64,000 bases of DNA from Pseudomonas tructae (GTDB taxonomy: Bacteria > Pseudomonadota > Gammaproteobacteria > Pseudomonadales > Pseudomonadaceae), in NCBI RefSeq assembly GCF_004214895.1, contig NZ_CP035952.1, positions 2,552,501 through 2,616,500 of the forward strand. Direction: 5' to 3'. This document shows, piece after piece, positions 9,912 through 22,708 of the stretch. The position numbers were made by a program, and so were the translations under genes. Within the stretch, counting starts at the first letter, position 1. Each line of letters begins with the position of its first letter. Under the pieces are notes generated by a model. It saw only the letters and a list, made by a program, of their open reading frames with translations, was not told the origin of the DNA and ran no database searches.

Positions 9912-10931
9912 CTATTCCTGCGTACGCCAGACCTGCGGCCAATGGGTGGTATCGACACTGTCGCACCAGCTCATCCGGCGAAATGCCTTGAGCTTCATCA
10001 CCTTACCGTCGTAGCGCCAGGTTGCATTGGCGCCACAGTAGCGCCCGCCCGGCTGCCACTGGGTCAGCTCGCCGCGGGCCGGGTCGAACTTGAAAAAGCC
10101 AAACATCTCGCCGCCCAGAATATCGTAGGGGGGGACCGAGATCTGCAGCGTGGTGGGTTGGTAGGGTGCGGTTCGCAAGGCGCGGTAGTAGCTGTACATG
10201 CAGCCCTGGCTGCCACAACCGTAACGCAGGCCTACCACGACATGGGTCGGGTCCAGGGGCGACACTTCGGCTTCGGCTTGCCAGTTGTCAACACCGGGCT
10301 CGTTCCAGTCAAGCCGGGTGATGGCGATGACGGCGTCAGCGATTGCTTTCTGTTCGGCTTCGCTCAACCCTGGCGCCGGTGTGAAAGGGGCAAGTGTGGG
10401 CGTTGGCGGGGCTGGCGGCACTTGACTGTCTGGCCGCGTACCCGGGCGCACGAAGGCGCTGGGGTGATCGATACGTCCTTGCACGGAATCGATGAACAGC
10501 AAGGCTGCACTCAGGCCCTGCAGCGATACCTGGCGCTGGCCGTCGCCAGTGTCGAGGGTCAGGTCCTGGCCGTTGCGCAACTGGCGCAACAACCGTACCG
10601 CAACGTCGCCTTTTGCGTGATAACGCATTTCTCCCTGCGAGGCCGGTCGAAATCCCGCTGGCGCCGGGCCGCCGTCGACCAGCAACTTTGCGCTCAGGTT
10701 GACACTGTCGTCGGTGAACAGGGTCAACGCCATGGCCCCTTCGACCCCGGCTTCGCGCATAAACTCCAGGCCCATGCCCTGATCGACGCTGCGCGACACC
10801 GCGGTGCAGCGCAGGGTGTTGTCGCAACCCACGACCCACTGCTTGAACTGCTTGAGCACCGGCTCCGGCTCGGCCAGGGCCAGGGCTGGCAGCAGCATCA
10901 AGGCCAGCCAGTTCCATCTTGCATCAACCAT
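9912..10931 (-). CDS. DUF1176 domain-containing exported protein (copy 1)
   Basis: A 339-residue protein with a signal peptide (MVDARWNWLALMLLPALALA) and the DUF1176 pattern. Seen are CDNTLRCTAV near residue 36, VSLQGLSAALLFIDSVQGRI in the middle and paired cysteines in YGCGSQGCMYSYYR, suggesting a periplasmic, disulfide-bonded fold. The function of the family is not established. A clear paralogue lies at 21680-22708 with the same N-terminal, central and C-terminal blocks. The upstream leader contains two nested inverted repeats (10947-11016), described separately. Confidence 0.75.
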   Translation of the reverse strand: MVDARWNWLALMLLPALALAEPEPVLKQFKQWVVGCDNTLRCTAVSRSVDQGMGLEFMREAGVEGAMALTLFTDDSVNLSAKLLVDGGPAPAGFRPASQGEMRYHAKGDVAVRLLRQLRNGQDLTLDTGDGQRQVSLQGLSAALLFIDSVQGRIDHPSAFVRPGTRPDSQVPPAPPTPTLAPFTPAPGLSEAEQKAIADAVIAITRLDWNEPGVDNWQAEAEVSPLDPTHVVVGLRYGCGSQGCMYSYYRALRTAPYQPTTLQISVPPYDILGGEMFGFFKFDPARGELTQWQPGGRYCGANATWRYDGKVMKLKAFRRMSWCDSVDTTHWPQVWRTQE

Positions 10932-11042: not shown

Positions 11043-11063
11043 AAAGGGCCGCAAGGGCCCTTT
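11043..11063 (-). terminator. Terminator hairpin downstream of the double-glycine peptide gene
   Basis: AAAGGGCC, a short loop and GGCCCTTT form a stem 30 bp beyond the stop of the small peptide gene. The T-rich sequence after it on the minus strand is interrupted, so termination may be partial. Confidence 0.55.
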
Positions 11064-11093: not shown

Positions 11094-11312
11094 TTATTTA
11101 CACATCGTGTAACTGCCTTGGTGCGCACCGCCCCGGTACAAATCAAAACGGTAGCCGGCGCCAGCGCCGAAGTTGTAGGAACCGCCGGTCAGTGTCCAGG
11201 AGCCGGCGCTGACGGAAAACCCGCCGCTTACCTGATCCACTTCCTGATCGTCCAGCACTCGCAGGGTAGCTGGCGCGGCGCTGGTCATATCGATGTTCTG
11301 TGCAGGGTTCAT
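11094..11312 (-). CDS. Double-glycine leader peptide precursor, putative microcin-like peptide
   Basis: A 72-residue precursor. The ATG at 11312 has GAGG 10 bases upstream. Residues 17-31 read LRVLDDQEVDQVSGG, fitting the double-glycine leader rules (Leu at -12, Glu at -8, Val at -7, Val at -4, Gly-Gly at -2/-1). The predicted mature part is 41 residues starting FSVSAGSWTLTGGSYNFGAG, rich in Gly, Ser and Tyr, with one cysteine next to last (ending SYTMCK). It lies divergently beside a C39-peptidase exporter operon that would cleave and export such leaders. I do not recognise the mature sequence. It could be a bacteriocin or a signalling peptide, and no immunity gene is seen. Confidence 0.7.
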   Translation of the reverse strand: MNPAQNIDMTSAAPATLRVLDDQEVDQVSGGFSVSAGSWTLTGGSYNFGAGAGYRFDLYRGGAHQGSYTMCK

Positions 11313-11570
11313 GAGCTTGATACCTCGTTGATACGGTGGGTTCGTCCTAGGTTGATCCCCCCAGGAGAGGGCCTGGGCGCAGAGTTTTACGGACAATAAA
11401 TGAGAGATCGATCACAGTTTAAATAGCAGTTGTTGGCTGTTTCGATCCCCGGACAAGTTAGTAATGCCAACGTTTTAAGTGCAATAGCACAAGTGTGCTA
11501 GTGCCGGCGGCTTAACCCGCCGTTATGCTCTTGCGTGTTATCAACATTGTTCGCCGGGTTGTGAAGTGGC
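11313..11570. promoter_or_regulatory. Divergent promoter region of the peptide gene and its exporter operon
   Basis: This 258-bp AT-richer spacer must drive both directions. It contains a perfect inverted repeat TAGCACA-AG-TGTGCTA (11485-11500) and a GC hairpin with arms CGGCGG and CCGCCG (11505-11522). Either could be an operator or leader structure. No confident -35/-10 pair is asserted. Confidence 0.5.
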
Positions 11571-12824
11571 ATGTTATTCAGGAGCGAAGCCGTGCACGCA
11601 CGGCGTGACAAGGAGTTGGGCAGTGTGCTGCTGGTGTCGCCCGTGCCGCTGCGCTGGGCGGCGCTGGGTGCAGTGCTGTTCAGCGTGCTGCTGATCGTGT
11701 TTCTGACCTGCGCCACCTATACCCGCCGCGCCACCGTGGCCGGTGTGCTGGTGCCCCAGGGTGGCCTGATCAAGGTATTCGCGCCGCAGCCGGGGGTGGT
11801 CCAGGGCCTCGCCGCCGTCGAAGGGCAGACAGTGGAGGCGGGCGCGACATTGATGACCCTGGGCAGTGACCTGTATGCCGAAGCCGGTGGTGCGCACGTC
11901 GCCATCAGTGGCTTGATCAAGCGGCGTAACGCCAGCCTGGCTGAAGAGATCACCACAACCCAGGCGCTGCACCTGCAAGAGCTCGAAGGCAAGCGCCGGC
12001 GCCTGGCCGTGCTGCAAAGCGAGCAGGGCAAAGTCGTCAGCCAAATGGGCATCAGCCGCCAGCGCCTGGGGCTGGCCCAGGGCATCGCCGCGCGCTACGC
12101 CGAGCTTCAGCGCCAGGATTATGTGTCGCGCGACCAGCTTCAGGAAAAGCAGGATGCCGTGCTGGAGGTGCGTCTGCGCAGCGAAGAACTGAGCCGTTCG
12201 TTGTTGTCGTTGCGCAACGACATCGCGACCCTGCGCGCCGAGCTTGCCGAGTTGCCGTTCAACCAGGGCAAGCAGTTGGCTGAGCTTGAGCGGCGGTTGT
12301 CGCAGAGCCAGGGCAGCCTGTTGGAAAGTGAAGTCAAACGTCAGGTGCTGATTACCGCGCCGGCCAGTGGCGAAGTGACGGCCATTGGCGTGGTCAACGG
12401 TACCCGTGCCGACGGTAACCGACCGCTGCTAAGCCTTGTGCCCAAGGATGCCCAACTGTACGCCGAACTCTACGTGCCCAGCCGTTCGGCGGGCTTCGTT
12501 CGCGCCGGGGATGCGGTGCGCCTGCGTTATCAGGCTTATCCCTATCAGCATTTCGGCCTGGCCCGCGGCACCGTGGCGTCGGTGTCGCGCAGCGCGTTGC
12601 CGGCCGATGAAATCATGAGCGTGGGCGGTGTCTCCGAGCAGCAGCGCGAACAGGGCCCGTTGTACCGGGTCAGGGTCACCCTCGAACACCAAAGCATGCT
12701 CGGGCGCGGTTTGAACGAGCGCTTGCGCTCGGGCATGCAACTGGACGCAGACATCTTGCAGGAGAATATGCCGCTCTATGAGTGGCTGCTTGAACCCCTG
12801 CGCGGCATAGGGAAACGCCTTTGA
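11571..12824 (+). CDS. HlyD-family periplasmic adaptor of a type I secretion system
   Basis: A 417-residue membrane fusion protein of the CvaA/HlyD type, joining the ABC exporter in the inner membrane to the outer membrane channel. The start MLFRSEAVHARRDKELGSVLL is typical of bacteriocin-export adaptors. One membrane segment spans about residues 29-47. After it come a biotinyl-lipoyl-like half (VFAPQPGVVQGLAAVEGQTVEAGA), a long helical hairpin at about 110-250 and the second lipoyl half with the ITAPASGEVTAI motif. The stop overlaps the exporter start by 4 bp. It is divergent from the double-glycine peptide gene. Confidence 0.88.
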   Translation: MLFRSEAVHARRDKELGSVLLVSPVPLRWAALGAVLFSVLLIVFLTCATYTRRATVAGVLVPQGGLIKVFAPQPGVVQGLAAVEGQTVEAGATLMTLGSDLYAEAGGAHVAISGLIKRRNASLAEEITTTQALHLQELEGKRRRLAVLQSEQGKVVSQMGISRQRLGLAQGIAARYAELQRQDYVSRDQLQEKQDAVLEVRLRSEELSRSLLSLRNDIATLRAELAELPFNQGKQLAELERRLSQSQGSLLESEVKRQVLITAPASGEVTAIGVVNGTRADGNRPLLSLVPKDAQLYAELYVPSRSAGFVRAGDAVRLRYQAYPYQHFGLARGTVASVSRSALPADEIMSVGGVSEQQREQGPLYRVRVTLEHQSMLGRGLNERLRSGMQLDADILQENMPLYEWLLEPLRGIGKRL

Positions 12825-14992
12825 ACATGCACCAGGCCCTGGCTTTCGGTATTGGCCGTAAATTGCCCATGGTGCTACAGGCCGAGGCCGCCGAGTGCGG
12901 CCAGGCCTGCCTGGCGATGATCGCCGGTTACCATGGCCAGCACCACGACCTGTTTTCCCTGCGCCAGAAGCTGTCGCCGTCAATGAAGGGCGCGACCCTC
13001 AAGCAGTTGATGGCCATGGCCGCCCAGTTGGGCCTGGCCAGCCGGCCATTGCGCCTGGAGTTGCAGGCGCTGGGGCAGTTGCGCTTGCCCTGTGTACTGC
13101 ACTGGAACTTCAACCACTTCGTGGTGCTCAAGGAGGTGGGGCCGCGTGGGGTGACGCTGCACGATCCGGGGCGCGGGGTGTGCAAACTGTCATTCGAGGA
13201 GGTGTCGGCAGCCTTCACCGGCGTGGCGCTGGAGCTGTGGCCACAGAGCGACTTCCAGCCGGGGCCGGCCAATCCGCCGCTGCGCTTGCGCCAATTGCTG
13301 GGACGGGTGCAAGGCTTTGGCGGGGTGCTCAGCCATGTACTGCTGTTGGCGGTGGCGCTGGAGCTGTGCATGGTGCTCAGCCCGTTCTTCCTGCAAACGG
13401 TGATCGACAAGGTGCTGGTCAGCGCCGACCTTGACCTGCTGGCGGTGCTGGCGATCGGTTTCGGCTTGCTCTTGTTGATGCAACAAAGCCTGGCCCTGGC
13501 CCGCTCCTGGGCCCTGATGTACCTGGGCACGCTGCTCGGCAGCCAATGGCAGATCAATGTCTTCCGCCACCTGGTGCGCTTGCCCGTGGCCTTTTTCGAG
13601 CGGCGCCACCTGGGCGATATCGTCTCGCGCTTCGGTTCGCTGAAAGCGATCCAGCACACCCTGACCACCTCGTTCGTCGAGGCCCTGCTCGATGGCCTGA
13701 TGACCCTGGTGACCCTGGGCCTGATGTTCGCCTACAGCCCGCCACTGGCCCTGATCGCCCTGATCGCCATGCTCATCTATGCCCTGGCTCGCTGGGCCTG
13801 GTTCGGCCCGTTGCGCCGCGCCAGCGAAGAGCAACTGGTGCACGCCGCCCGGCAGCAGAGCTACTTCCTGGAAAGCATGCGCGGGGTACGCACCCTCAAG
13901 TTGTTCGGCCATCAGGAGCAGCGGGCCAGTACCTGGGGCAGTCTGCTGGTCGAGGAAATCAACGCCGGCTTGCGCCCGCAGAAGCTGGAGCTGGCTTACC
14001 GCGCGTTCAATGGCCTGTTGTTCGGCCTGGTGACCTTGCTGGTGATCTGGCTCGGCGCCCGGTTGGTGCTCGAGGGCCAGTTCAGCGCCGGTATGCTCAT
14101 CGCCTTCAACGCTTACAAGGAACAGTTCAACAGCCGTGTGGCCGGTCTGATCGACAAGCTGGTCGATGTGCTGATGCTGCGCCTGCATGGCGAACGCCTG
14201 GCCGATATCCTCTTGCAGGTGCCCGAACGCGCCGCCTCTGCAGAGGCCGACGACAACGACGCGGTCGATAGCGTGCCAAGCCTTGAAGTGCGCCAACTCA
14301 AGTTCCGCTACAGCGACCATGAACCCTATGTGCTGGACGAGGTGTCGGTGCGCATCGACGCCGGGGATTCACTGGCTATTGTCGGCCCCTCGGGTGGCGG
14401 CAAGACCACCTTGCTCAACGTCATGCTCGGTATCCTCACCCCGGTCAGTGGCAGTGTGCTGCTTGACGGTGTGGCGATCGATAGCCACAACCTGGAGCGG
14501 CTACGGCGGGTCAGCGCCACGGTGTTGCAGGACGATGTGCTGTTCGCCGGCTCCATAGCCGACAACATCAGCTTTTTCAGTGCCCAGGCCAACCCGCGCT
14601 GGGTCGAACAGTGCGCGCGCATGGCGGCGGTACATGACGATATCGCGCAGATGCCCATGGCCTACAACACCCTGGTGGGCGACATGGGCACGGTGCTGTC
14701 GGGTGGGCAGAAACAACGAATTTTGCTGGCGCGGGCTCTGTACCGGCGGCCCAAACTGCTGTTTCTCGACGAAGCCACCAGCCACCTCGACATTGCCAGG
14801 GAGGCGGCGGTCAACCACGCGCTGCAAGCGCTGAACATCACCCGCATCATTGTCGCGCATCGGCCCGATACCATTCGTTCGGCACGCCGGGTGCTGGCGC
14901 TCGACAATGGCCGGGTGGTGTATGACGGGCCGCTGATCGAGACGGTCGAGGAACCGGGCGCCGTGGTCCAGGGTGCGGCGTCCCCGTCATGA
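12821..14992 (+). CDS. Peptidase C39-containing ABC exporter (peptidase/ATPase/permease)
   Basis: A 723-residue CvaB-type exporter that cleaves double-glycine leaders and exports the peptide. The N-terminal C39 protease has Q20, C26 in VLQAEAAECGQAC, H99 in HWNFNHFVVL and D115 in LHDPGRG, a complete catalytic set. A six-helix ABC membrane domain follows (about 160-440). The ATPase has Walker A GPSGGGKTT near 522, signature LSGGQKQRILLARAL near 626 and Walker B LLFLDEATSHLD near 647. All are canonical, so the protein should be both a protease and an ATPase. It overlaps both neighbouring genes by 4 bp, indicating a tightly coupled operon. Confidence 0.92.
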   Translation: MNMHQALAFGIGRKLPMVLQAEAAECGQACLAMIAGYHGQHHDLFSLRQKLSPSMKGATLKQLMAMAAQLGLASRPLRLELQALGQLRLPCVLHWNFNHFVVLKEVGPRGVTLHDPGRGVCKLSFEEVSAAFTGVALELWPQSDFQPGPANPPLRLRQLLGRVQGFGGVLSHVLLLAVALELCMVLSPFFLQTVIDKVLVSADLDLLAVLAIGFGLLLLMQQSLALARSWALMYLGTLLGSQWQINVFRHLVRLPVAFFERRHLGDIVSRFGSLKAIQHTLTTSFVEALLDGLMTLVTLGLMFAYSPPLALIALIAMLIYALARWAWFGPLRRASEEQLVHAARQQSYFLESMRGVRTLKLFGHQEQRASTWGSLLVEEINAGLRPQKLELAYRAFNGLLFGLVTLLVIWLGARLVLEGQFSAGMLIAFNAYKEQFNSRVAGLIDKLVDVLMLRLHGERLADILLQVPERAASAEADDNDAVDSVPSLEVRQLKFRYSDHEPYVLDEVSVRIDAGDSLAIVGPSGGGKTTLLNVMLGILTPVSGSVLLDGVAIDSHNLERLRRVSATVLQDDVLFAGSIADNISFFSAQANPRWVEQCARMAAVHDDIAQMPMAYNTLVGDMGTVLSGGQKQRILLARALYRRPKLLFLDEATSHLDIAREAAVNHALQALNITRIIVAHRPDTIRSARRVLALDNGRVVYDGPLIETVEEPGAVVQGAASPS

Positions 14993-16344
14993 ACAGGCAC
15001 CTGTTCAACGGGTGGCTGGCAGGGCTGCTGGTTGTCTGCACCCATGTGCAAGGCGCGGCCGCCGATGCCTGCCCCGGCCATGTATCACTGTCCGAGCCGC
15101 TGGGCTTGTCCACTGCCGTCGCCATGGCCCTGTGCGCCGATCCTGAGGTACGCGAGGCCTGGCTGTCGCAACTGAGCAGCCAGGCCAACCTTGATGCCGC
15201 GCATTCGGCGTACTGGCCGACCGTGCAAGCCCAGCTCAGCAGTGGGCGCGCCAACCGCAAGACGCGCTACGACAACTTTCCCGAAGCCGACTCGACCTTG
15301 AGCACCCGCACCAACAGCTACGGCCTGGACCTGAGCTGGGTGTTGTATGACTTTGGCCTGCGGGCGGCGAAAGTCGAGGGCGCCCGCCAAGTGTTGAACG
15401 CCGCCAGCAGCAGCCGCGTGGAGAAAATCCAGGCAACGGTGCTCGACACCAGCAAAGCCTTCTACCAGGTCCAGGCCAACGCCGCCTTGCTCGAGGCCAA
15501 GCGCAGTGCCGAGTCCCTGGCGGCCAACAGCCTCAAGGCGGCTACGGCCAAATACCAGGCCGGGGCCGGCGAGCAGAGCGATCGCCTGCAGGCGCAGACC
15601 ACCCATGAACAGGCGCAGCTCGAACGGGTATTGGCCGAGGGTGAATACGCCGCGGCGCAAGGTGCCCTGGCCAGTGCCCTGGGGCTGTCACCCTCGGCAC
15701 CGCTGACACTTGCGGCCTTGAACGAACCGGCGGGGCAGGAGGCTGAGTTCATGGCCAGTGTCGATGCGCTGATGGCGCAAGCCAGGGCCCAGCACCCGGC
15801 CATCGACAAGGCCCGCGCCGAGTGGGCCGCAACCCGCGCCAAGGCGGATGAAGCGCGGGCGCAAGGGCGCCCCAAGGTGTCGTTGTTCAGCAGCTACCAG
15901 CAGCAGGACACGCCGATCGACCAGGTATCGACGCGCCAGCAGATCGAGACCTGGAGTGTCGGGGTGCAAATCACTGTGCCGATCTTCGACGGCTTTCTCA
16001 GCCGCCGACGTGCCCGCGCCGCCGATTACGAAGCCGGCGCCCGCGAACAGGCCGTGGCACAGACCGAGCGCACAGTCGCCCTCAACGTCTGGAAGAGCCG
16101 TCAGGCCCTGGATGCCCGCACCCGGGCACTGGCGATCAGCCGCAGCTTTGTCAGCAGCGCCGGGCAATCCCAGCGGGTCGCATTGGGGCGCTACAAGGCC
16201 GGGGTGGGCAGCATCATCGAACTGCTCAGGGCGCAGAATGAACTGGCCATCGCCGAGCAGCGGCGCGTGGAGGCGCAGGTCAACTGGTACACCGCCAGGT
16301 TGCAGTTGGCGGCGGACCTGGGGCAGTTGCATGGCGCGCTGTAG
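14989..16344 (+). CDS. TolC-family outer membrane protein of the type I secretion operon
   Basis: A 451-residue outer membrane efflux protein. The signal peptide MNRHLFNGWLAGLLVVCTHVQG is followed by two repeats of the TolC helical and strand pattern (for example LSWVLYDFGLRAAKVEGARQ and VPIFDGFLSRRRARAADYEA) and a C-terminal VNWYTARLQLAADLGQL. Its start overlaps the ABC exporter stop by 4 bp, so the operon encodes a complete three-part exporter with its own channel. A dedicated TolC suggests the whole unit travels or evolves together. Confidence 0.88.
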   Translation: MNRHLFNGWLAGLLVVCTHVQGAAADACPGHVSLSEPLGLSTAVAMALCADPEVREAWLSQLSSQANLDAAHSAYWPTVQAQLSSGRANRKTRYDNFPEADSTLSTRTNSYGLDLSWVLYDFGLRAAKVEGARQVLNAASSSRVEKIQATVLDTSKAFYQVQANAALLEAKRSAESLAANSLKAATAKYQAGAGEQSDRLQAQTTHEQAQLERVLAEGEYAAAQGALASALGLSPSAPLTLAALNEPAGQEAEFMASVDALMAQARAQHPAIDKARAEWAATRAKADEARAQGRPKVSLFSSYQQQDTPIDQVSTRQQIETWSVGVQITVPIFDGFLSRRRARAADYEAGAREQAVAQTERTVALNVWKSRQALDARTRALAISRSFVSSAGQSQRVALGRYKAGVGSIIELLRAQNELAIAEQRRVEAQVNWYTARLQLAADLGQLHGAL

Positions 16345-21679: not shown

Positions 21680-22708
21680 TCAACCCTTGGCGCGCCAGAG
21701 CACCGGCCAGTATTCCTCGTTGATGCTGTCGCAGTGCCACATCGTCCGCCGGTCCTTGAGCTGCATGGCCGCACCGTCGTACTGCCAGACCGAGCTTTCG
21801 CCGCAGTCCTTGCCCATTTCGCGGTAGATTTTCAATTGGCCGCTAACCGGATTGAAGCTGATCTGCCCATACAGGTCGGGGCTAAAGTGAGCCTTGGGGT
21901 CTGCTTTGAGTTCCAATGGCGTCGCCTGGTACGGCGCTGCGCGTGAGACGCGGTAGAGGCTGTGGTTGCAACCGTCTTCGGCGCAACCGTAACGCAGGCG
22001 CACCAGGGCATGGGCCGGGTCCAGGGGGTAGACCTCGGCCTGGGCTTTCCAGTTCTGATGGGGGGAGGCACTCAACTCGTCTTTGGTCTGCGCGATCATG
22101 GCATCGCCGATTGCTTGTTGCTCGGCCTCACTCAAGGTCGGCGCCAGGGTAAAACGCGGCAGTCTGGGCGTGGCCGGGGCGGTGGGCAGGCGACTGTCCG
22201 GCTGGAACCCCGGGCGCATGAATGCACTGGGATGGCCGATGCGCCCTTGCACCGAATCCATCAACAGCAATGTGGCGCTCAAGCCCTGCAGCGATACCCG
22301 GCGCTCGCCATGGTTGCTGTTGGAACTCAGGGTGTCGCTGATGCTCAGCTCGCGCAGCTTTTCAACGGCGGCGTCGCCCTCAAGGTAATAGTACTCACGC
22401 GCTGTCGAACCGTACTTCCATGGTTCGGTAGGGTGGCCATCGAGGTGAAATTCGTAACGCAGGCTGATGTCGTCGTAGCTGATCGCACTGACCCGGGTGC
22501 TGCCCTTGAGCCCGGCTTCGCGGACGATGTACAGGCCCATGCCCGGGTTGTCGGTGCTGCCCGACACTGCCGTGCAGCGGCGGGTGTTGTCGCAGGCCAC
22601 CCGCCAGTCCTGGAACACCCGGCTCAACGGCACTTGTTCTGCCGTGGCGGCCAGGGTCAGGGTGGGTAACAGGGTAAGGGCCAGCCAGTTCCATCTTGCT
22701 GAAAACAT
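21680..22708 (-). CDS. DUF1176 domain-containing exported protein (copy 2)
   Basis: A 342-residue paralogue of the protein at 9912-10931. The ATG at 22708 gives MFSARWNWLALTLLPTLTLAATAEQ, nearly the same signal peptide as copy 1. The longer frame up to 22786 would bury it. Shared blocks are CDNTRRCTAVSG, VSLQGLSATLLLMDSVQGRIG and a paired-cysteine YGCAEDGCNHSLYR. It is a periplasmic protein of unknown function. The two copies sit 11 kb apart on the same strand, indicating gene duplication followed by divergence or insertion of other genes between them. Confidence 0.75.
   Translation of the reverse strand: MFSARWNWLALTLLPTLTLAATAEQVPLSRVFQDWRVACDNTRRCTAVSGSTDNPGMGLYIVREAGLKGSTRVSAISYDDISLRYEFHLDGHPTEPWKYGSTAREYYYLEGDAAVEKLRELSISDTLSSNSNHGERRVSLQGLSATLLLMDSVQGRIGHPSAFMRPGFQPDSRLPTAPATPRLPRFTLAPTLSEAEQQAIGDAMIAQTKDELSASPHQNWKAQAEVYPLDPAHALVRLRYGCAEDGCNHSLYRVSRAAPYQATPLELKADPKAHFSPDLYGQISFNPVSGQLKIYREMGKDCGESSVWQYDGAAMQLKDRRTMWHCDSINEEYWPVLWRAKG

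Follow-up and report, generated by a model that had tools for sequence, protein, structure and literature searches.

The locus described here is probably a four-gene peptide-secretion cassette that is wired into a kinase/regulator system through a shared palindrome. A precursor would be made from position 11312 leftwards, cut after its double glycine by the C39 peptidase domain of the neighbouring ABC exporter, and carried straight out of the cell through an ABC-HlyD-TolC channel as a 41-residue peptide; both cleavage after the GG and export are predicted from the family to which the exporter belongs. The palindrome, which peptide and exporter share and from which both face away, most probably serves as operator for a NarL/LuxR-type response regulator whose partner would be a hybrid histidine kinase.

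The window, by which we mean the whole 64-kb stretch of DNA that was analysed, lies in a source genome consisting of a single 5.69-Mb contig. The original prediction had recognised in it a 72-codon gene with a leader following the double-glycine rules, and L-12, E-8, V-7, V-4 and GG are all present in the sequence; the 41-residue mature part that it proposed is confirmed by the open reading frame and the leader boundary. The leader/mature junction of the precursor reads ...LRVLDDQEVDQVSGG followed by FSVSAGSWTLTGGSYNFGAGAGYRFDLYRGGAHQGSYTMCK, and the mature part, with a calculated mass of 4.33 kDa, ends in HQGSYTMCK. With a strict leader pattern, the precursor is the sole matching open reading frame in the window, and leader residues R18, L20, E24, G30, and G31 are invariant across 29 aligned sequences. 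An AlphaFold2 model of the precursor contains four strands and is of low confidence (mean pLDDT of 50.4). A terminator scan requiring a T run listed nothing at the hairpin that follows the gene, and no sigma-70-type promoter was found between 10900 and 11700.

On the opposite strand, the predicted divergent HlyD/C39-ABC/TolC operon (11571-16344, +) held up as well, its reading frames being open, its Pfam domains in agreement, and its frames overlapping by 4 bp at each junction (12821-12824 and 14989-14992). The catalytic triad claimed for the C39 domain was found at the expected places (C26, H99, and D115), and the ABC exporter also has Q20, Walker A, and LSGGQ. The locus thus has the catalytic Cys-His-Asp, ABC exporter, adaptor, and outer membrane channel of a C39 peptidase-containing type I secretion system. 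The closest named records with the exporter are from Pseudomonas rubra (99%) and P. wadenswilerensis (93%). A search of plasmids (E <= 1e-100) gave 740 records, all of them distant exporters, one at 60-80% identity and 739 below this.

Table 1. Features of the cassette, of the kinase/regulator pair, and of related clusters (positions are those of the window unless stated otherwise).
Feature	Location	Strand	Remarks
Possible transcript end, GC-rich hairpin directly 3' of the peptide gene	11043..11063	-	Spotted by eye
Double-glycine peptide precursor gene, 72 aa	11094..11312	-	Start codon (ATG) at 11312, stop codon at 11094; 21 database proteins in its family; purifying selection
Mature peptide, 41 aa, single Cys at penultimate position	11097..11219	-	From sequence
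Leader, 31 aa, GG at end as predicted C39 cleavage site	11220..11312	-	From sequence
Operator-like palindrome CAATAGCACAAGTGTGCTAGTG, 7-2-7 core TAGCACA-AG-TGTGCTA	11482..11503	.	22 bp, between the divergent peptide and exporter units
HlyD-type periplasmic adaptor, 417 aa	11571..12824	+	Pfam HlyD_3, E 3.8e-15
Peptidase-containing ABC exporter, 723 aa	12821..14992	+	C39 domain at residues 15-143; Pfam Peptidase_C39, E 7.4e-33; ABC_membrane, ABC_tran
TolC-type outer membrane channel, 451 aa	14989..16344	+	Pfam OEP, E 8.1e-51
Hybrid histidine kinase, about five to six membrane segments	genome 3141764-3143380 (8765-10381 of L149)		Homologous to the kinase of C-type clusters
NarL/LuxR-type response regulator, GerE DNA-binding domain	genome 3143486-3144109		Divergent from the kinase
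Further double-glycine peptides of C-type clusters	L203 17076-17740; L200 4855-5731		

We used the HlyD protein to locate the cassette in 398 Pseudomonas genomes. At E <= 1e-80 there were matches in 19 genomes, six of which, at 40-42% identity, were set aside; close relatives (63-100% identity) are found in 13 of the 398. In 12 of these 13 genomes a divergent double-glycine peptide lies within a few hundred bases upstream of the exporter, and in the thirteenth (G212) the contig stops 139 bp upstream of the exporter. The original prediction had named the absence of such linkage in relatives as a result that would count against it; the conserved linkage instead supports a peptide that is processed and exported by a C39 type I system of its own. 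A query with the peptide by itself detected 11 of the 398 genomes at E <= 0.01, including one (G027) that is probably a chance match. When proteins were searched with the family alignment, 21 matched at E <= 3.3e-12, and the match after these was at 0.29; twelve of the 21 carry the name of their source, which is Pseudomonas for 11 and a metagenome-assembled genome called Paucimonas for one. By these searches the peptides form a small family, so far of Pseudomonas, which would account for the mature part having seemed unfamiliar at first. In the source genome itself, no double-glycine open reading frame meeting the pattern was found in the 13-14 kb around each of the four other C39 loci. Two observations were made in other genera: beside a related exporter, Janthinobacterium fluminis has five double-glycine open reading frames with AIGEEGG-like core repeats, as in multi-core modified peptides (L048, 2359-6258), and in Andreprevotia lacus four double-glycine peptides whose cores are related stand in tandem (L057, 4740-6506).

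The mature parts fall by eye into three types, namely A (the window), B (AFGYHxGAxVVNYGQG...LHVSWGS...C and similar), and C (IEFSAFGYTFAGGESFAPG..., found in P. syringae, P. cerasi, and similar); the family alignments probably misplace the C-type mature part, whose kinship to the other types was judged by eye. Within the A clade nearly all changes in the mature part are synonymous (pS 0.43 and pN 0.016 for the window compared to P. wadenswilerensis, pS 0.37 and pN 0.011 compared to G007). For the C type, comparison of cil with G313 gave pN 0.000 and pS 0.26 in the mature part, against pN 0.090 and pS 0.29 in the leader. By these comparisons, purifying selection acts strongly on the mature part of types A and C, more so than on the leader. 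Purifying selection appears weaker or is unclear in the B types, where five of six comparisons gave pN 0.039-0.069 with pS 0.07-0.31 and the sixth gave pN 0.011 with pS 0.35. A potential concern is that the gene is a chance reading frame beside an exporter that serves another substrate. Short frames with GG do arise by chance, and the peptide is without an accepted Pfam or NCBIfam family, its matches lying below the cut-offs (Bacteriocin_IIc at 15 bits with a cut-off of 27.1, TIGR03949 at 15.2 with a cut-off of 21.5). Conservation nevertheless disfavours this explanation so strongly that we give it almost no weight: homologues with the same leader occupy the same place in all but the truncated genome, and pN/pS is low in types A and C.

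The surroundings of the cassette differ between the types. Most surrounding genes of the window are also present in P. rubra and P. wadenswilerensis (L006, L007), and G007 has the DUF1176 neighbour in common with the window. When eleven window genes were queried against seven loci with long flanks, five of type B and two of type C, only cassette genes matched; the peptide passed the threshold in two of the seven and was recognised by its leader in the others. L008 (G326), whose C-type cluster ends early after the ABC gene, yielded no TolC. At E <= 1e-80, the flanking DUF1176 gene had a match in only 2 of 38 genomes, and both carry the cassette. We also noted a second DUF1176 gene in the window (21689-22708), on the same strand as the one at 9912-10931, about 11 kb rightward of it and 49% identical to it; the pair is present in P. 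rubra and G007 too. Transfer RNA genes are a usual place for acquired DNA. Three of the five B-type loci have a tRNA-Lys gene past the peptide, at a distance of 126-1,100 bp (L009 6099-6174, L013 6115-6190, and L075 5092-5167), and thus B-type cassettes often adjoin a tRNA gene. A conserved stretch lies beside the peptide in L009 and L012, that of L009 being the tRNA-Lys gene; ARAGORN found no tRNA gene there in L012 or L010, and none in the window.

The original prediction had seen no evident self-immunity gene, and comparison across cassette types is in agreement. None of the 25 open reading frames of at least 25 aa in the window flanks behaved as an immunity gene conserved in six loci of other types. 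The recurring flank and intergenic frames were the peptide, the start of HlyD, the end of TolC, their antisense images, and scattered weak matches (E 4e-5 to 8e-4). Conservation thus points to neither a fifth gene nor an immunity candidate. An immunity gene specific to the A type is possible, because many flanking frames in L007 are conserved through nearness alone.

These results bear on whether the peptide is a microcin of class IIa type, whose immunity gene would lie at another place or whose producer would be protected by the exporter or by the choice of target site. The N-terminal double-glycine leader and the C39 exporter, adaptor, and channel are those of such a system, some database relatives are called bacteriocin by their sources, and Bacteroides is reported to have double-glycine bacteriocins that lack an immunity protein (PMC10233263). 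The same review gives known class II microcins a mature part of about 60-90 aa and 5-10 kDa; the window peptide (41 aa, 4.33 kDa) and the mature parts across the types (40-43 aa) are smaller. The comparison across types also leaves the peptide without an adjacent immunity gene, it lacks the Gly/Ser-rich C-terminal siderophore motif of class IIb microcins, and change in the mature part of types A and C is purifying rather than diversifying. Assignment to this class is tentative, and we consider it somewhat doubtful. In the broader sense of a microcin-like antagonist, the role is the one that we favour for the peptide, with a likelihood a little short of even: the type of machinery and, in the C-type clusters, the accompanying hydrophobic peptide speak for it, and the length, the lack of an immunity gene in our comparison, and the mixed net charge of the mature parts (+2 to -4 between types) speak against it.

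Control of the cassette was approached through the palindrome between the divergent units; neither this shared palindrome nor the link to a two-component system elsewhere in the chromosome formed part of the original prediction. Allowing up to two mismatches, the palindrome pattern has its sole window match at this site, with 0.11 expected. Equivalent palindromes are present in all 13 cassette regions (12 genomes with HlyD relatives plus L010), as counted with a pattern that was written after inspecting the sites. There are 23 such sites, 18 of them distinct, with one in each of the three A-type regions and two in each of the ten others. The consensus is CAATAGTACANNTGTACTATTG, with a 7-2-7 inverted repeat as its core, which is the layout of NarL sites (PMC7419079). 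LuxR and Lrp boxes were also considered and were dropped on spacing.

The core AGTACANNTGTACT had also suggested SOS control, in which the palindrome would be a LexA2 operator and the peptide would be induced by DNA damage like a colicin. The lexA2 promoter has AGTACAAATGTACT, and AGNACANNTGTNCT occurs in the 5.69-Mb genome only at the lexA2 promoter and in the cassette region (one site for the reversed control). LexA2 is present in 11 of 12 other cassette genomes, and the palindrome core resembles the lexA2 promoter of the source genome and of 10 of the 12 others. We rejected this candidate after analysis of the lexA promoters of the 12 other cassette genomes and the matrix score. The lexA2 boxes lack the conserved CAATAG flanks, and the common box scores 7.5 bits by the cassette matrix, a value equalled by 75 of 1.13 million background windows, compared to 22-31 bits for the cassette sites; with another weighting and a background that includes the cassette loci, it scores 5.4 bits (166 of 1.43 million windows). 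Moreover, G346 has the cassette but no LexA2, and the association with the kinase, described below, accounts better for the motif. LexA2 control is thus very improbable. As a separate observation, the lexA2 promoter region of G127 (L128) is without the AGTACAAATGTACT box that is present in ten other cassette genomes.

A matrix built from the cassette sites only revealed further strong sites in C-type loci, within the 5 kb beyond the peptide and next to a hybrid kinase. The source genome has just one other exact copy of the core, TAGNNCANNTGNNCTA, at 3141293, and next to it stands the homologous hybrid kinase. The kinase/regulator pair of this genome is unlinked to the cassette and about 580 kb away from it. 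The bare core has 2 sites in the source genome and 5 for the reversed control, so this count by itself means little. The sensor region of the kinase was detected in 143 of the 398 Pseudomonas genomes (E <= 1e-12, paralogues included) and in every one of the 13 cassette genomes, the only match in G326 being a weaker paralogue (E 8e-29). The co-occurrence has a Fisher p of 1.2e-6 without correction for kinship.

We examined 20 of the 143 kinase genomes, 7 with and 13 without the cassette, which were picked before scanning; the 3.5-kb pieces scanned at first were too short to include the palindrome. In 12.6-14.8 kb around the kinase, sites above 15 bits are present at 10 of the 13 cassette-less loci, and none was found in the remaining three (L192, L193, and L194). 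With permuted columns, 200 control matrices reached a mean of 0.31 and a maximum of 6 kinase loci out of 13, compared to the 10 observed. Above 17 bits, the cassette-only matrix finds 18 sites in 170 kb around the kinase of the 13 cassette-less genomes and one site in 1.13 Mb from 71 other exporter loci, mostly of other genera, which corresponds to 10.6 versus 0.09 per 100 kb (G+C of 0.60 for the kinase set and 0.57 for the exporter background). A Pseudomonas-only background of 154 kb contained one site above 17 bits; this background included L224, which has a strict site known from G018. The strict symmetrical form of the palindrome has 23 sites in 18 of the 398 genomes (none for the reversed control), and 15 of the 23 have a kinase match no more than 2 kb away. 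The kinase is present in each of the 18 genomes, which are not independent, many appearing closely related. The strict form is absent from all 13 cassette genomes because the cassette sites are less symmetrical. Among cassette genomes of types A and B, a site is present at three of eight kinase loci, namely the three A-type ones, and no palindrome lies beside the kinase in the five B-type genomes examined (L182-L186). This enrichment at kinase loci indicates that the palindrome very probably belongs to the kinase/regulator pair and that the cassette carries it too. The association of the motif is strong, and from it we infer that the regulator would bind the palindrome.

Palindromes are found at other genes as well. 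Strict palindromes away from the kinase (G018, G181, and G073) are located at lipoprotein and other genes, with no double-glycine peptide there by the pattern used, and an OmpA-family gene and FadL-like genes also lie behind palindrome sites (L199, L011). Since the kinase system is present in many cassette-less genomes, and the palindrome near lipoprotein, FadL-like, and OmpA-like genes, the cassette has apparently been wired into an existing envelope-related regulon. In two loci (L198 3503-3538 and L199 11104-11139) we observed two overlapping copies of the palindrome immediately upstream of a second response regulator gene, an arrangement that suggests self-control of the system.

The C-type loci bring the components together. 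Exporter, kinase, and two more double-glycine peptides are in one cluster in L200, L201, L202, and L203, so that four of the five C-type loci have the kinase in the exporter cluster. The second peptide is hydrophobic (GG followed by MSTGEGVAAIGVVVAATALAP... in L203) and has the palindrome upstream in four of four cases; the further peptide is proline-rich (GG followed by ADFTIMPVPG...). On the side of the peptide, L200, L203, and L204 also have FadL-like and lipoprotein genes with palindromes; one of these lipoprotein genes is present in L201, and L202 stops before the peptide. A regulator gene lies between TolC and the kinase in L200 and L203 (two of the five C-type loci) and was not found in the clusters of L201, L202, and L204.

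Clusters of this type raise the question of whether the exported peptide is itself the ligand of the hybrid kinase, forming an autoinducing loop that would be a Gram-negative counterpart of Gram-positive pheromone circuits. Such a pheromone is consistent with the palindrome of peptide and exporter lying also beside the kinase/regulator pair, with the kinase being present in every cassette genome, with the clustering in type C of kinase, peptide, and a hydrophobic, bacteriocin-like second peptide preceded by the palindrome, and with the high conservation of the mature part in types A and C; a signal, furthermore, requires no immunity gene. The kinase is not dedicated to the peptide, however, being present without the cassette in 130 of 385 genomes, where another stimulus would be needed. 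Three different peptide types also accompany similar kinases, and the sensor region comprises little beyond membrane spans. We therefore regard the autoinducing loop as unlikely. Equally improbable in our estimation is its fuller form, a three-component communication system in which the hybrid kinase senses the exported peptide and the NarL-type regulator induces peptide, exporter, and the extra bacteriocin-like peptides of type C through one palindrome. A signal between cells in the general sense, for which the likely control by a membrane-embedded kinase and the conserved sequence argue, and against which stands the frequency of the kinase without the peptide, is slightly less improbable and ranks second to the microcin-like antagonist as the role of the peptide, with another extracellular function third.

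A double-glycine peptide with a C39 type I exporter is a known kind of system, and Dirix et al. reportedly surveyed Gram-negative bacteria for such peptides as early as 2004. The peptide family, and its connection with a kinase/regulator pair by way of a defined palindrome, are new as far as could be seen. Neither the peptide family nor the cassette was named in the titles and beginnings of abstracts of the mostly open-access literature searched, and a full-text search, which gave a single unrelated paper, is weak evidence that the combination of kinase/regulator and palindrome is undescribed. A Pseudomonas peptide family thereby comes with a likely switch, consisting of a 22-bp palindrome and one kinase/regulator pair, which makes the timing of peptide production, and the choice between killing and signalling, directly testable; in addition, a DNA motif is thereby connected with a kinase family that more than a third of the sampled Pseudomonas genomes have (143/398).

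In Gram-positive pheromone circuits, a double-glycine peptide is exported, and a membrane-embedded kinase works through a regulator that acts on the promoters of peptide and exporter. The cassette resembles these circuits in its double-glycine peptide with a predicted exporter and in the membrane-embedded kinase, and its regulator may act on the promoters in the same manner. It differs in that the kinase is a hybrid, the regulator has a GerE domain, and the pair is unlinked in the source genome and common without the peptide. The Neisseria nap island likewise combines bacteriocin-like double-glycine peptides with a C39 peptidase, and no antimicrobial activity of its peptides was detected (PMC11798529). 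Unlike the cassette peptides, those of the nap island are cationic, go with a FapF-related channel, and promote autolysis (PMC11798529). The functionally confirmed microcins counted in the 2022 review are all from Enterobacteriaceae (PMC10233263). As outlined in that review, microcin V (CvaC, Cvi, CvaB, CvaA, and TolC) is like the cassette in its double-glycine precursor, C39 ABC exporter, HlyD-type adaptor, and TolC-type channel (PMC10233263). Compared to the enterobacterial class IIa microcins, the cassette has its own TolC gene, a shorter mature part, a divergent layout, and a shared palindrome, and no immunity gene was found in it. Microcin PDI is a double-glycine peptide under a two-component system, EnvZ/OmpR (PMC5311971), and the cassette peptide may be under such a system too. 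The candidate regulator of the cassette is by contrast of NarL type and paired with a hybrid kinase.
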